A DNA stretch of 40,332 nt from contig JAHIRB010000032.1 in the NCBI GenBank assembly GCA_018818885.1, forward strand, positions 1-40,332, given 5' to 3'. The stretch is from Patescibacteria group bacterium (lineage in GTDB: Bacteria > Patescibacteriota > Patescibacteriia > Buchananbacterales > SURF-54). A program made the translations under genes and the position numbers. Shown in pieces: positions 32,291 through 40,196 of the stretch; within the stretch, counting starts at the first letter, position 1; each line of letters opens with the position of its first letter. Below the pieces are notes generated by a model, which ran no database searches, was not told the DNA's origin, and saw nothing but the letters and a program-made list of their open reading frames with translations.

Positions 32291-32311
32291 ACAAATTAAA
32301 ATAACTTAATT

Positions 32312-32338
32312 AAAACCGCTTAAATATGCGGTTTTTTG
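32312..32338 (+). terminator. Terminator
   Basis: AAAACCGC...GCGGTTTTTT. Confidence 0.8.
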
Positions 32339-32358
32339 TTATTATTACCTAATAATAC

Positions 32359-32387
32359 TTGACAAATTATTCAAAATATGATAAGAT
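32359..32387 (+). promoter_or_regulatory. Sigma70-like promoter of the large structured RNA
   Basis: TTGACA 32359-32364, 17-nt spacer, TAAGAT 32382-32387. Confidence 0.7.
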
Positions 32388-32393
32388 TTTATG

Positions 32394-32960
32394 TTTAGTC
32401 AAAAAATGATTGGACATTATTTCCTCCCCCTCGGGATCAGGGGAAAGAACCTAGGGGAATAGCAGGCACAGTGTCAAAGCACAGTGTTAAATTTGATTCA
32501 TCCGATAAATTCATTATCATTCGGAAATCAAAGACCTGCTATTCCCCGGGCTAATTTTCATAACCAAATGCTCAAAAGTCTGCAGACAACCTCCCTAAGC
32601 TAGTTGTGCTAGCAAAGACTGGAGGGTCTGTCCAAACTTTTTGGACTCGGTGCCTGTGGAATCTTGGATAGTAGGACAAATTAATTTGTACCTTTAATTA
32701 TCCCCTATATGGGGATCCTCCTTTCCCTACTATCCAGAATTCTGCAGGCACGACAAGCATGGGGTGTAATCACTTAGGATAATTCTGGCCTCGGCTCGAA
32801 TCATCCAAGAGACTACACCTTTGTCTGCAGACTTGTGAGCATCAAAAAACAACCATTTTCTATTTTATAACGCTATCAGAAAGAATCAAGAAACAGTTAC
32901 GATTAAGACAAAAATCAAAAATTGACTGAAAACTTATAAAATAGAAAATGGTTGTTTTTT
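32394..32960 (+). ncRNA. Large ornate structured RNA candidate (unassigned)
   Basis: Helices: 32454-32466/32535-32547 (13 bp perfect); 32568-32589/32821-32842 (21/22); 32651-32676/32726-32751 (26 positions, G.U tolerant); plus many local hairpins; no ORF. Confidence 0.7.
32844..32960. repeat. 27-bp perfect inverted repeat with 63-nt loop
   Basis: AAAAAACAACCATTTTCTATTTTATAA (32844-32870) / TTATAAAATAGAAAATGGTTGTTTTTT (32934-32960). Confidence 0.95.
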
Positions 32961-32987
32961 AGATTTAGCTAATGTTGATAACTTTTA

Positions 32988-33075
32988 TTGACTTTTTTAA
33001 AATAGTATGTTATTATAAATACAAGATCACAAAGAAATTTGTGATTACCCCCCCCACAAAGGGGTTTTTTATTTG
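32988..33075 (+). promoter_or_regulatory. Promoter and attenuator-like leader with C8 tract
   Basis: TTGACT-17-TATTAT; then ATCACAAA-GAAA-TTTGTGAT and C8-ACAAA-GGGG-TTTTTT. Confidence 0.6.
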
Positions 33076-33121
33076 AAAAAAATATTAATATATATACTAA
33101 AAATCAATAAAAACAAGATCA

Positions 33122-34703: not shown

Positions 34704-37700
34704 ATGTATTCGTCAAACTCACTTAAGGTGAATAAACTAATAATATTTAGCTTAACGTTGTTGTTAGTATTTTCGTATTTTTTGTTAGTACCAGTGAATG
34801 CTGCAGAAGTTACATCTTGCGGTACTACAATTACCGAAGATACTACCTTGACACAAAACCTAACCAGCGGTGGTGAAGATTGTATCACCATAGGCGGTAA
34901 CAACATAACCTTAGATTGTGCTGGATTTTCTATCTCTGGAGCCGGGAGTGGTAATGGCATCTACATGCATACGAAAACTGGAGTGACCATACAAAACTGT
35001 ACCATCAGCAATTTTACTGATGGTATTTATAGTTTATTTGGTTCATACACAGCAGACTCTAACACATTTCAAAATAATATTGAGGGAGGTATTGACGCTA
35101 GATATGGTGGAGGTGTGACAATAACAAATAATACTTTTAATAATAATACTTCCTACGGAATATATCATAGCAGTCTTGATATAAGCACTATTTCAAATAA
35201 TACAATTACAAACAATACTGACTGGGGATTGTATTTAAGCAGTTCAACAAACATTACTGCAACAGGCAACACTATAACTAATAATGAATATGGATTTTTA
35301 ACAATCAATGGAGTTTTTACCGCATCAAATAATGATATCTCAAATAATACAATAAATATCAGAAGTACCTGGACAGCTGCAAGCCCAACTAACCCAACTA
35401 TCACAAATAACTATTGGGGCACTACTTCGTGTAATGATATAGAGGGAAAATTACAAGGTGTTGATGTCACCTTAACTTATGAACCATTTTTGGATACAGA
35501 AAATGGCAACCCAATGGAGTGCCCAACAGATACGGTCGGAAGTAATACTACCGATCTAACAGAGGAAGAACCACAAGCGCCCGTAAGCGCAGTACCAATT
35601 ACTGGCTGCAGTACTATTATTGAGGATTCTGTTTTAACACAAGACATAAATAGCAGTGAAGGGAATTGTATTATAATAGATGCAAGCAACGTAATCTTAG
35701 ATTGTAACAACCATACAATAACCGGACCTGGATCAAACTACGGTGTTTATATCGCACACCAAACAGGTGTGACCGTACAAAATTGCACAATTAGTAATTT
35801 CACTGATGGTATTTATTCTTTAGCATCATCTTTTACTTCTGACACAAATACATTTCAAAATAATATTGAAGGTGGTATTGATGCACGTTACTCGGGAAAT
35901 TTTACAATAGCAAATAATACTTTTGGAAATAACGGCACATATGGCATTTATCATAGTGGTGTTGATGTCAGCACAATTACTAACAATACTATCACGAACA
36001 ATCCATGGGGAGTTTATCTTAGCAATACAACTAACGTTACAGCTTCTGATAATACGATAACTGGAGGTGACTATGGTTTTTTAACAACTAATTCAACTTA
36101 TACTGCAAATAATAACGATATTTATAATAACACATTTAATATTCGCCATGTTTGGAATGCAGAAAATCCTGTTGACCCAAAAATTTCACTTAATTATTGG
36201 GGCTCAATTGATTGCAATGAAATACAAAGTAAACTTTCTCCAGAAAGTTTGGCTTTTGATCCTTATTTAGGATCTGACGGAACACAATTAACTTGCGAAA
36301 CAGAAGTTGAATGTACTGATTTGGATGACGATGGTTATAGTGTTGAAGGAGGTGCTTGTGGTGTGCTTGATTGTAATGATGATAATTCAAAAATTAATCC
36401 GAGCATTGAAGAAATTTGTAATAATATTGATGACGACTGTGATGGAGAAATTGACGAGGAAGAAGTCTGTGGTTCAATTGTTGAAGTAAAAAAAATGTTA
36501 CTTGATGGTGAATGGCAATATCAAGAAGTTGAAACTTTAGCTTACCCTGCACCAACTGCAGGTTGGCAAACAATATCTGTTCCAAGTTATTTAGAAGGAT
36601 ACACTGGCGAAAAAGTTTGGTATAAAAAAACTTTCAACGTAACAGAAATTGCACCATTAATGAATCTAAATTTTAGTGGTGTAAAATATGATGCACAAAT
36701 TTATTTAAATGATCAATTCGTTGGTAGCAATTTGGGCGGATATGAACCTTTTAAATTTGAAATTTCTGATTATCTTGTCCTAGGAAAAAATACATTGTAT
36801 GTAGGAGTAACAGATTGGACTGCCACTTTTAACGAACAAGTTGACATGAGTCAGGCTAAAAATAAATTTGATGCAGTTAATTATCCGATTGATGTTGTTA
36901 CTAGTGCGGTTGGAAATTATTATTACTACTATGGTATTTGGGATAGCGTATATTTAGAATCATATCCAGAAGCATACATCGACAATGTATTTATCCAAAC
37001 ATCTTACAGAAAAAATAAAATTACTGTTTCTTTAGACCTAACAAATGATTCTAGAAATACAAAATTCATATCAGTACATAACAATATTTTAGACGTTAAC
37101 GGTAACGTCGTAAAAACATTAAGAGAACAAGTATTTGAACTAAAAAGTAGTACAACAAAAAAAATAATATTAACTGAGCGATGGGACGATCCAATATACT
37201 GGTCACCGGACAATCCTTATCTATACACACTTCAAACTCAAATTGTCGGAACTATTACCGGCGACACACTTAACGAAATCAATACTAAATTTGGTTTTAG
37301 AGAGTTTTGGGCTAAAGGAATAAATTTTTACCTTAATGGCATTAAAACAAAAGTTTTTGGATCCTCTACCCCACCACCAACTAAAGATTTATCTAGGGAA
37401 CAAATTACTGAAATACTTACCAACATAAAAAACGGAAACAACAATACTTTTAGATTACACAACCAGCCTTGGCCACAAGAATGGTACGAGGTAGCAGATG
37501 AAATAGGATTATTAACCGTAATGGAAAGCGCATACTTCTGCAATTCATCAAAAAACTATGATTACGAAGATCCTATTTTTTGGGAAAACTATAGAACACA
37601 CCTTCAAAAAAATATTGATAAACTAAAAAACCATCCATCTATTGTATTCTGGAGCATGGAAAACGAACTACTCCACTGCATAGGTCCAAGCCACTCATAT

Positions 37701-40196
37701 ATAGAACAAGACTTAGCTGATCTTGTACCATTTGTCAAAGATATAGATCCTACCCGTCTGGTTTACTTTGAAGCTGATTTAGATCCAATGGGTGCAGCTG
37801 ATGTAATTGGTTTGCACTATCCTAATGAATTTCCTGCAAATTACGATTTTCCAAATACTGCAAGTTGGATTGATGGACCAGTAAACAGACCCTACATGTA
37901 TATTGACGGCTGGGAGTGGCAAAAAGATAAACCTTTATATATTGGCGAGTTTGGATGGGTCTATGATCTACGTAATGATCCATATGCAATTTTGTTTGGT
38001 GATGCTGCTTATAACGACCCTCAATATTACCGTGGCAATACTTTTCAATCAAGTTATTATAGAAATTTAGCGCGTGCAGAAATATTTGAAATGCAAATCC
38101 AAGCCTACAGAGAAAGAAATGTATCTGCAATTGCACCTTGGAGTATTTTTGACGATGCAAGTATACCGCTTCGTGATGAGTTAGATTTAAACTTACCAGA
38201 TAACTTGTTATACGATACAGTAAAACGCACTTTTGAACCAATTAGATTTTTTATTAAGAATTACGATAAAACTTTCTTTAGCAAACAAAAGGTTAGAAGA
38301 GATATAGTTGTACACAACGATGTTGCGCAAGACTCTAATTTAACTTTTGTATGGCGTTTCAATGGATCGCAAGACCAACGTACAGATAATTTGAATCCAG
38401 GGCAAAAGAAAAATTTTAGTTTTACCATACAAATGCCGGAGGTTTCACAAAAAACCCTAATTGATCTAGAAATGAAATTATATAAAGATTCAGAAATGAT
38501 ATTTTCCGAAACAAAAACTTATAGTGTCTTTCCAAAAGAGAAAGTAAATATTTCTGAATATAAAATCGGTTTGTATGATCCGCTTCTTGCTAATTATACA
38601 ATGTTAAAAAACAGTAATATTAAATATGAATTTGTTGATAGCTTAGAAGATGTTGCATCTGATTTAGATATTCTAATTATCGGCGCATATTCTCTAAACC
38701 AAGAAACATCAATTGACATCAACGCTCTTAATCTATTAGTTGAAAACGGTCTAAATGTTTTAGTTTTAGAACAACAATATCTACCCCAAGGTTTTGGTCT
38801 AGAACTCGATGATGCACCTGCAACCATGTCATTTAAGCGAGCAACGGATAGTACCATATTTAATGGACTTTCCGACGAAGATCTAAAATTTTGGCGAGGT
38901 GATAACTATATCATTAATAAAAATATCATAAACCCAATGTTTGGCAATCTAAAGGTTATCGTTGATAGCGGAAACATTAACGGTTTAGTTTATTCACCAA
39001 TACTCGAAATTCCAAAAAATCAAGGAAAGTATATTTTTAGCCAACTTGTAGTTGGGCAAAAATACTACGTCGAGCCAGTTGCTAGAAAACTATTCCAAAA
39101 TTTAGTTAGTTCTTCTTTGGAGAACAAAAATCCATTTATAGATTTGGGGGTAATGACCGATGATAGTAATTTAATTGGGTACTTAAACCAAAACCAAGTA
39201 AGCTATTCACACATCAGTACTGATGTCGATTTAAGTAATTACGAAGTTATATTAATTAGCGGCTCAAACAACATGTGGAATACCATTGTTGATAATATCA
39301 ATGCATTGAATTTCTATGTTGCCACTGGCGGTAAACTAGTACTACATAATCTAAGCGAAAATAATTACAATAATTTATCCGAATTGATCGCAAGTGACTA
39401 TATTGCAAACGACGTTCAAATGTATCCAGTCTTTATCAACGACGTTAACGATCTAAATTCTGGTTTAAGTAATTATGATTTGCATTGGCTAAAAAATTAT
39501 CAAGTTAAACAAGATACATACAATACAGTGCTTGTTGAAAATTTTGACCTCGCGAATTATCAAACAATCGAGGCAGAAGATTTCTTAACCAGAACTCAGC
39601 ATACAAAAAATCAAAATGGGAGAATTCTAATTTATGTTAATGGTTACATAGAAGAAAATATAAACTTTGAGACAGGAGAAACTCTACCACACACCTTTGG
39701 CATTTCTGCTATGGGAACCCAAGCTGGCAGCATATATCCGATCATGGTTGTAAAGTTAGATGGTTTCGAAGTCAATCGCTTTTATATAGATAGTGATGAT
39801 TGGAGCACGTATACATTTACAACGAATGTTGACCCTGGTGAACATACATTAAGAATCGAATTTATCAATTACGCCAATGTCGATGGCACCAACAGACATC
39901 TTTATTTAGATAAGCTAATGTTTGGAGAAAAAATTAATGAAGATAATGTTGTACTCCTTACACGTCCTGGCGCTTTAGCTCAGATAAATAAAGAAATAGG
40001 CTCAATAATTATTGATAATATTAAATGGGATACAGAAACTGATAATCCTGAAAGAGCAAATAATTATATCTCAAATTTATTGACAAATCTAAATATTAGA
40101 ATGGGGGATGTTCCCAAACCACCTGTCGTTATTACTCAATGCGGAACTACTATTACCGAAAATGCTGTACTCACTTCCGATTTAACAAGTGCCTAG
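34704..40196 (+). CDS. Giant secreted multidomain protein: two NosD-like beta-helix modules, MopE-type motif, glycoside hydrolase family 2 core, CBM-like C-terminus
   Basis: Signal peptide; repeated TITEDTTLTQNLTSGGEDCITIGGNNITLDC; DLDDDGYSVEGGACGVLDCNDDNSKINPSIEEICNNIDDDCDGEIDEEE; HPSIVFWSMENELLH and PLYIGEFGWVYDL. Confidence 0.88.
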   Translation: MYSSNSLKVNKLIIFSLTLLLVFSYFLLVPVNAAEVTSCGTTITEDTTLTQNLTSGGEDCITIGGNNITLDCAGFSISGAGSGNGIYMHTKTGVTIQNCTISNFTDGIYSLFGSYTADSNTFQNNIEGGIDARYGGGVTITNNTFNNNTSYGIYHSSLDISTISNNTITNNTDWGLYLSSSTNITATGNTITNNEYGFLTINGVFTASNNDISNNTINIRSTWTAASPTNPTITNNYWGTTSCNDIEGKLQGVDVTLTYEPFLDTENGNPMECPTDTVGSNTTDLTEEEPQAPVSAVPITGCSTIIEDSVLTQDINSSEGNCIIIDASNVILDCNNHTITGPGSNYGVYIAHQTGVTVQNCTISNFTDGIYSLASSFTSDTNTFQNNIEGGIDARYSGNFTIANNTFGNNGTYGIYHSGVDVSTITNNTITNNPWGVYLSNTTNVTASDNTITGGDYGFLTTNSTYTANNNDIYNNTFNIRHVWNAENPVDPKISLNYWGSIDCNEIQSKLSPESLAFDPYLGSDGTQLTCETEVECTDLDDDGYSVEGGACGVLDCNDDNSKINPSIEEICNNIDDDCDGEIDEEEVCGSIVEVKKMLLDGEWQYQEVETLAYPAPTAGWQTISVPSYLEGYTGEKVWYKKTFNVTEIAPLMNLNFSGVKYDAQIYLNDQFVGSNLGGYEPFKFEISDYLVLGKNTLYVGVTDWTATFNEQVDMSQAKNKFDAVNYPIDVVTSAVGNYYYYYGIWDSVYLESYPEAYIDNVFIQTSYRKNKITVSLDLTNDSRNTKFISVHNNILDVNGNVVKTLREQVFELKSSTTKKIILTERWDDPIYWSPDNPYLYTLQTQIVGTITGDTLNEINTKFGFREFWAKGINFYLNGIKTKVFGSSTPPPTKDLSREQITEILTNIKNGNNNTFRLHNQPWPQEWYEVADEIGLLTVMESAYFCNSSKNYDYEDPIFWENYRTHLQKNIDKLKNHPSIVFWSMENELLHCIGPSHSYIEQDLADLVPFVKDIDPTRLVYFEADLDPMGAADVIGLHYPNEFPANYDFPNTASWIDGPVNRPYMYIDGWEWQKDKPLYIGEFGWVYDLRNDPYAILFGDAAYNDPQYYRGNTFQSSYYRNLARAEIFEMQIQAYRERNVSAIAPWSIFDDASIPLRDELDLNLPDNLLYDTVKRTFEPIRFFIKNYDKTFFSKQKVRRDIVVHNDVAQDSNLTFVWRFNGSQDQRTDNLNPGQKKNFSFTIQMPEVSQKTLIDLEMKLYKDSEMIFSETKTYSVFPKEKVNISEYKIGLYDPLLANYTMLKNSNIKYEFVDSLEDVASDLDILIIGAYSLNQETSIDINALNLLVENGLNVLVLEQQYLPQGFGLELDDAPATMSFKRATDSTIFNGLSDEDLKFWRGDNYIINKNIINPMFGNLKVIVDSGNINGLVYSPILEIPKNQGKYIFSQLVVGQKYYVEPVARKLFQNLVSSSLENKNPFIDLGVMTDDSNLIGYLNQNQVSYSHISTDVDLSNYEVILISGSNNMWNTIVDNINALNFYVATGGKLVLHNLSENNYNNLSELIASDYIANDVQMYPVFINDVNDLNSGLSNYDLHWLKNYQVKQDTYNTVLVENFDLANYQTIEAEDFLTRTQHTKNQNGRILIYVNGYIEENINFETGETLPHTFGISAMGTQAGSIYPIMVVKLDGFEVNRFYIDSDDWSTYTFTTNVDPGEHTLRIEFINYANVDGTNRHLYLDKLMFGEKINEDNVVLLTRPGALAQINKEIGSIIIDNIKWDTETDNPERANNYISNLLTNLNIRMGDVPKPPVVITQCGTTITENAVLTSDLTSA

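Follow-up and report, generated by a model that had tools for sequence, protein, structure and literature searches.

A class-wide structured RNA family of Patescibacteria outside Rfam 15, with a near-invariant unpaired strand

Is the stretch without open reading frames that follows a DUF167 gene in a Patescibacteria genome an RNA gene, and if so, on which strand, over what length and with what role? The window analyzed here is a stretch of 40,332 nt (contig JAHIRB010000032.1, positions 1-40,332, GenBank assembly GCA_018818885.1) from a bacterium of the order Buchananbacterales. A first-pass annotation, made from the sequence, read this stretch as a large, ornate structured RNA of approximately 560 nt with its own promoter, an undescribed or lineage-specific class located next to a surface-protein locus.

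The promoter can be read directly in the sequence, with TTGACA at 32359-32364, TAAGAT at 32382-32387 and a 17-nt spacing, and the interval 32291-33121 (from the DUF167 gene to 33122) is, as proposed, without any ORF of at least 60 aa. The three long helices that had been listed, i.e., hairpin (a), P1 and P4, as well as the small hairpins, can be recognized in the sequence and are also part of the fold of minimum energy (Table 1). The energy of this fold is -218.6 kcal/mol (z = -12.8; equal stability in 0 of 100 shuffles), although the z-score owes a part of its value to an AT-rich repeat that the annotation overlooked. The reverse strand of the locus also folds well; therefore, the strand is not assignable from the folding energy alone.

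Homologs were found by nucleotide search in 20 of 56 genomes of relatives (the window's own included), and the matches were concentrated on window positions 32717-32841. The first alignment, of 21 copies and not fitted to a model, has a consensus of 27 pairs; 92.4% of its cells are paired and 19 of the 27 pairs show changes in both partners, a level that none of 500 shuffles reached, and pairing falls to 50% when the partner is shifted by a single column. The covariance model of the 91-nt core (R1) was derived from this alignment. A larger alignment of 102 copies, to be read with the caveat that it was fitted to the model, has 91.3% of pair cells paired and changes in both partners of 21 of the 27 pairs (none of 500 shuffles equalled this), with 552 doubly changed cells compared to 176 in shuffles; its pairing likewise collapses after a shift by one column, and RNAalifold recovers the same architecture from it. 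In these diverged homologs, the covariation exceeds that of both shuffles and slides, as expected of a new structured RNA family.

The core model also distinguishes the strands, scoring 74.6 bits on the plus strand of the locus and 18.2 bits on the minus strand, and near-invariant G.U pairs (in 93 and 99 of 102 sequences) are compatible with the plus strand only. The covariation thus depends on G.U pairs of one strand; the first-pass annotation had likewise taken tolerance of G.U pairs as a sign of RNA rather than of a DNA palindrome. The stretch of approximately 560 nt is indeed structured, whereas the conserved unit is narrower and includes 32568-32842 only; this unit is a real non-coding RNA gene on the plus strand. 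Neither hairpin (a) nor the 27-bp inverted repeat that directly follows the RNA was seen in the relatives inspected, for hairpin (a) including L005 of the same family. The repeat, also overlooked by the annotation, has a 63-nt loop and is present as a single copy in the genome. Hairpin (a) was considered as a second copy of the core and rejected (best model score 3.6 bits).

Table 1. Features of the RNA locus (window coordinates)
Feature	Positions	Strand	Basis
Sigma70-type promoter, TTGACA-17-TAAGAT	32359-32387	+	seen in sequence
5' hairpin (a) (32454-32466/32535-32547), window-specific, between promoter and conserved RNA	32454-32547	+	13-bp stem in fold
P1 5' strand, closing helix; partner 32821-32842	32568-32589	+	forms in 11/11 large forms compared
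P3 branch (CCTCC..GGAGG), UUGUG loop, found in the window's order	32588-32627	+	fold, large-form folds, alignment A2
Hairpin GTCCAAA-CTT-TTTGGAC, window-specific	32630-32646	+	fold; other rows of alignment A2 gapped
P4 arm (GTGCCTGTGG../..CTGCAGGCAC), 32651-32676/32726-32751, with inner loops	32651-32751	+	fold; also in large-form relatives
CCTCCTTTC, common to several large forms	32717-32725	+	folds, alignment A2
Conserved core (model R1), family-defining	32740-32832	+	74.6 bits; 338/384 class genomes; covariation
Near-invariant unpaired strand CGACAAGCAY, here CGACAAGCAT	32751-32760	+	almost constant in 100 class copies of alignment A3
P1 3' strand; partner 32568-32589	32821-32842	+	as for P1 5' strand
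27-bp perfect inverted repeat (32844-32870/32934-32960), TTTTTT at end, possible terminator	32844-32960	+	fold; local
Possible terminator CCCC-ACAAA-GGGG-TTTTTT	33052-33070	+	read from sequence, putative

In most relatives, the RNA is a single hairpin of about 150 nt, several of them ending in a U-run terminator, and the promoter of this minimal form is mostly located about 65-95 nt upstream of the core. In several of the minimal copies inspected (e.g., L023, L048, L050, L053 and L061), the basal helix continues into a closing stem that resembles a terminator and has a U-run. Helix 1 terminates in an invariant CA:UG, the unpaired CGACAAGCAY lies opposite a single U, helix 2 carries the near-invariant G.U pairs, and the apical knob is GGC-loop-GCUCGA. 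The unpaired strand is almost constant in the 100 class copies of alignment A3, while the flanking helices vary. An alternative CAAG/CUUG pairing is possible; judging from the aligned sequences, both the helix 2 changes and the compensatory ones in helix 1 speak for the structure described here.

In the window's order, the same core is embedded in a multi-branch fold of about 275 nt (the large form), in which helix 1 is divided: the 3' half pairs with a distal 5' strand to form P1, the 5' half pairs with P4, and branch P3 is added. The outer P1 is formed by differing sequences in the large forms compared, and P4 is reduced to a plain hairpin in L200. UUUGUACCUUU and CCUCCUUUC inside P4 are common to several large forms; both CCUCCUUUC and CCTCCTTTC resemble the anti-Shine-Dalgarno tail of 16S rRNA. 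The description as large and ornate thus applies to the window's order and has to be limited to it, because most relatives have the hairpin of about 150 nt. In L007 and L018, extra copies of P1 arms (TCTGCAGACTTCTGAGCAGATT and similar) occur some 120 nt downstream of the core; recombination through the palindromic arms may have left them behind. A leader containing TTGAAAA is found upstream of P1 in L006, L011 and L012, and it resembles the boxA leaders of rRNA, a candidate likeness.

Of 384 sampled class genomes, 338 had a match to model R1, in nearly all cases a single copy; two or three copies were found in a few families, and about 12% of the sampled class genomes had no copy detectable with the stricter filters used. 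Two loci of family f37 (L015 and L046) have a tandem pair of cores about 215-225 nt apart, and other members of f37 have two or three matches. In a sample of 384 genomes from the phylum, 32 had a match, 30 in the class and two outside it, and the complete genome G388 (785,860 bp), from elsewhere in the phylum, had no credible R1 match anywhere. The two matches outside the class have a shortened loop without CGACAAGCAY, indicating that this strand is not required everywhere. An exact-pattern scan of 85,462 genomes of named species yielded 56 loci, all of them, by label, in Patescibacteria groups or in bacteria that are uncultured or unnamed. Among the groups are Falkow-, Magasanik-, Uhr-, Kerfeld-, Komeili- and Buchananbacteria, which belong to class ABY1 in GTDB.

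None of the 4227 families of Rfam 15 reached its gathering score in the RNA region of the window, the RNA had no match at the gathering threshold in 20 homologous loci either, and permissive scans of the window region and three homologs gave sub-threshold matches only. A match to MIR6288, far below threshold, falls on the local 27-bp repeat and was rejected. The family lies outside Rfam 15; in the literature searched, which covers the field in part, no paper could be recognized as describing this RNA, and we claim no priority over any report elsewhere. The lack of an Rfam match, the very strong covariation and the class-wide homologs support the initial suggestion of an undescribed, lineage-specific class of non-coding RNA.

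Comparison to known large or housekeeping RNAs leads to the same result. RNase P RNA and tmRNA share a housekeeping-type distribution with the family; however, neither gave a covariance match at the window locus, and both are present elsewhere in the same genome (contigs C3 and C13). OLE, ROOL and GOLLD are, like the window form, multi-branch, stand-alone RNAs whose function is not known, but none of them had a covariance match in the all-Rfam scans of the window and 20 homologous loci, and the family differs from them in its small core and in being cellular, class-wide and single-copy. A viral origin was also rejected: the RNA pattern is absent from viral contigs. Covariance scans agree with the annotation, which saw no hallmarks of RNase P RNA, tmRNA, SRP RNA or 6S RNA at the locus. 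The small SRP RNA and 6S RNA (RF00013) were not found in the window's own genome, and it should be noted that the sensitivity of the RF00013 search is limited, since RF00013 was detected in only 5 of the 14 reference genomes used as a control.

The gene organization would fit an independent transcript. A promoter matching the consensus at 10 or more of 12 positions is located upstream of the RNA in 82 of 103 distinct loci (11 in shuffled sequences, 6 on the opposite side), and a U-run of at least five occurs within 100 nt downstream in 86 of the 103 (27 in shuffled sequences). A VanW gene (PF04294 with PG_binding_4) adjoins the RNA in 84 of 108 distinct loci, mostly downstream and convergent (about 70 convergent). 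The other flank is variable, with genes for ClpP, DUF167, DHH phosphoesterase, RuvB-like or RNase J-like proteins (the last three named from reading of the sequences), and in about 12 loci the RNA has the reverse orientation between an unchanged pair of neighbours. In L077, L084, L103, L106, L112, L118, L129, L136 and others, it was apparently flipped in place between the vanW and clpP sides. The two matches outside the class have the same layout, and the adjoining sequence reads by eye like a VanW C-terminus. An ortholog beside vanW in another lineage was looked for and rejected; in G388, vanW adjoins another gene, with no RNA there. The window RNA itself has no adjoining VanW gene, and the same is true for Falkowbacteria and others. 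The 464-aa protein downstream of the window RNA had no Pfam match, and a protein of 1830 aa at 34704-40196 contains right-handed beta-helix, glycosyl hydrolase family 2 and CBM60 domains. The proposed link to a surface-protein locus did not survive, because the recurring neighbour elsewhere is the VanW gene.

What, then, would such an RNA do? First in our order of preference, and somewhat probable given the sequence comparisons, is a constitutive, trans-acting RNA of a ribonucleoprotein (RNP) that presents CGACAAGCAY to one conserved partner. The RNA would be transcribed constitutively from its own promoter-like sequence and would act in trans, with the helices serving as a scaffold that presents the unpaired strand and the apical GGC..GCUCGA knob to the partner, which is most likely a protein. 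Extra arms would have split the basal helix in the window's order, resulting in the multi-branch form of about 275 nt around the same core. A loop that stays nearly constant while the helices drift suggests one conserved partner rather than many mRNA targets, and the variable flank together with the inversion of the RNA argues against control in cis. Conversely, the approximately 12% of class genomes without a detectable copy and the loss of CGACAAGCAY from the two matches outside the class count against an RNP RNA, and VanW, adjacent in 84 of 108 loci, may point to a local connection that an RNP RNA leaves unexplained. As to a broader version, in which a near-universal housekeeping RNP RNA of the whole class has a breadth there like that of 6S or SRP RNA and its order-level variants grew from a simple hairpin to a large multi-branch RNA, we consider the case evenly balanced.

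It is rare for a stand-alone structured RNA to be retained across nearly all of a bacterial class, and those that are mostly belong to core machinery. A single copy in most members of the class, the RNA's own promoter and a near-constant loop of ten letters indicate that it probably does a basic job not yet studied, and an almost invariant loop in a single-copy RNA of ultra-small, gene-poor bacteria suggests a basic function that was missed. The lack of cultures for most of these organisms and of an Rfam model for the RNA would explain why it was overlooked. The claim of novelty concerns the RNA family and is not extended to the mechanism. The model and the coordinates make the family testable now in existing metatranscriptomes.

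Second, and in our opinion unlikely, is a base-pairing regulatory small RNA, with CGACAAGCAY as a seed for mRNAs containing RUGCUUGUCG. In the folds, stable helices flank the exposed strand, a terminator is present, and the complement of the strand starts with RUG, resembling a start codon. However, not one RUGCUUGUCG was found in 458 kb of class loci once the RNA itself was set aside, shorter words show no clear enrichment, and a seed this constant over nearly a hundred families would be unusual for a small RNA with multiple targets. The constancy of the loop and the lack of a clear excess of complementary sites in these 458 kb of class DNA favour an RNP RNA. Separately, a search for the loop complement at the RNase P and tmRNA loci and among adjacent genes gave only loose words and no exact 10-nt site.

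Third, and less probable again, the RNA could be a functional analogue or an extreme derivative of 6S RNA, in which RNA polymerase would bind the central loop of a long hairpin. Both are single-copy, stand-alone hairpin RNAs with a central unpaired region; the minimal form, a single hairpin of about 150 nt, has its own promoter, and RF00013 was not found in the genome. Nevertheless, the loop of the family is one-sided (10 nt versus 1 nt in the consensus) and not the two-sided central bubble of 6S RNA, the conserved sequence is different, and no 6S match was obtained even at permissive thresholds.

The adjacency of VanW, apparently shared by the matches outside the class as read from their sequences, could also mean a cis element or shared terminator of vanW rather than an independent RNA. 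We regard this as quite improbable: the promoter of the RNA points into the RNA, about 12 loci carry the RNA in inverted orientation relative to vanW, and the window, Falkowbacteria and others have no vanW there.

A replacement of SRP RNA is more doubtful still. Bacterial SRP RNA (RF00169) resembles the family in being a long hairpin of about the same size whose internal loop is conserved, and no SRP RNA was found in 58 genomes of the class; yet the window RNA has no RF00169 match, and the family has neither the GGAA tetraloop nor the AGCAG loop. The signal recognition particle as a whole appears to be absent from the sampled Patescibacteria. The Ffh M domain was detected in one of 384 phylum genomes, on a small and possibly foreign contig, but in none of the other 383; no convincing SRP GTPase was seen in 26 relatives, and tblastn for SRP GTPase/Ffh found none in the complete genome G388 (L160-L199), while the Ffh/SRP protein controls were detected in 14 of 14. 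Ffh was not found in the genomes carrying the family either, so that an SRP-type RNA would have no Ffh to bind. The loss of SRP is phylum-wide whereas the RNA is limited to the class; the coincidence is therefore not specific, and we reject this replacement.

A DNA-level element with dyad symmetry, such as a recombination or replication site, is scarcely credible despite the palindromic CTGCAG arms and the flips of orientation between the same neighbours, given that the covariation depends on G.U pairs on one strand and that a promoter and a U-run are present.
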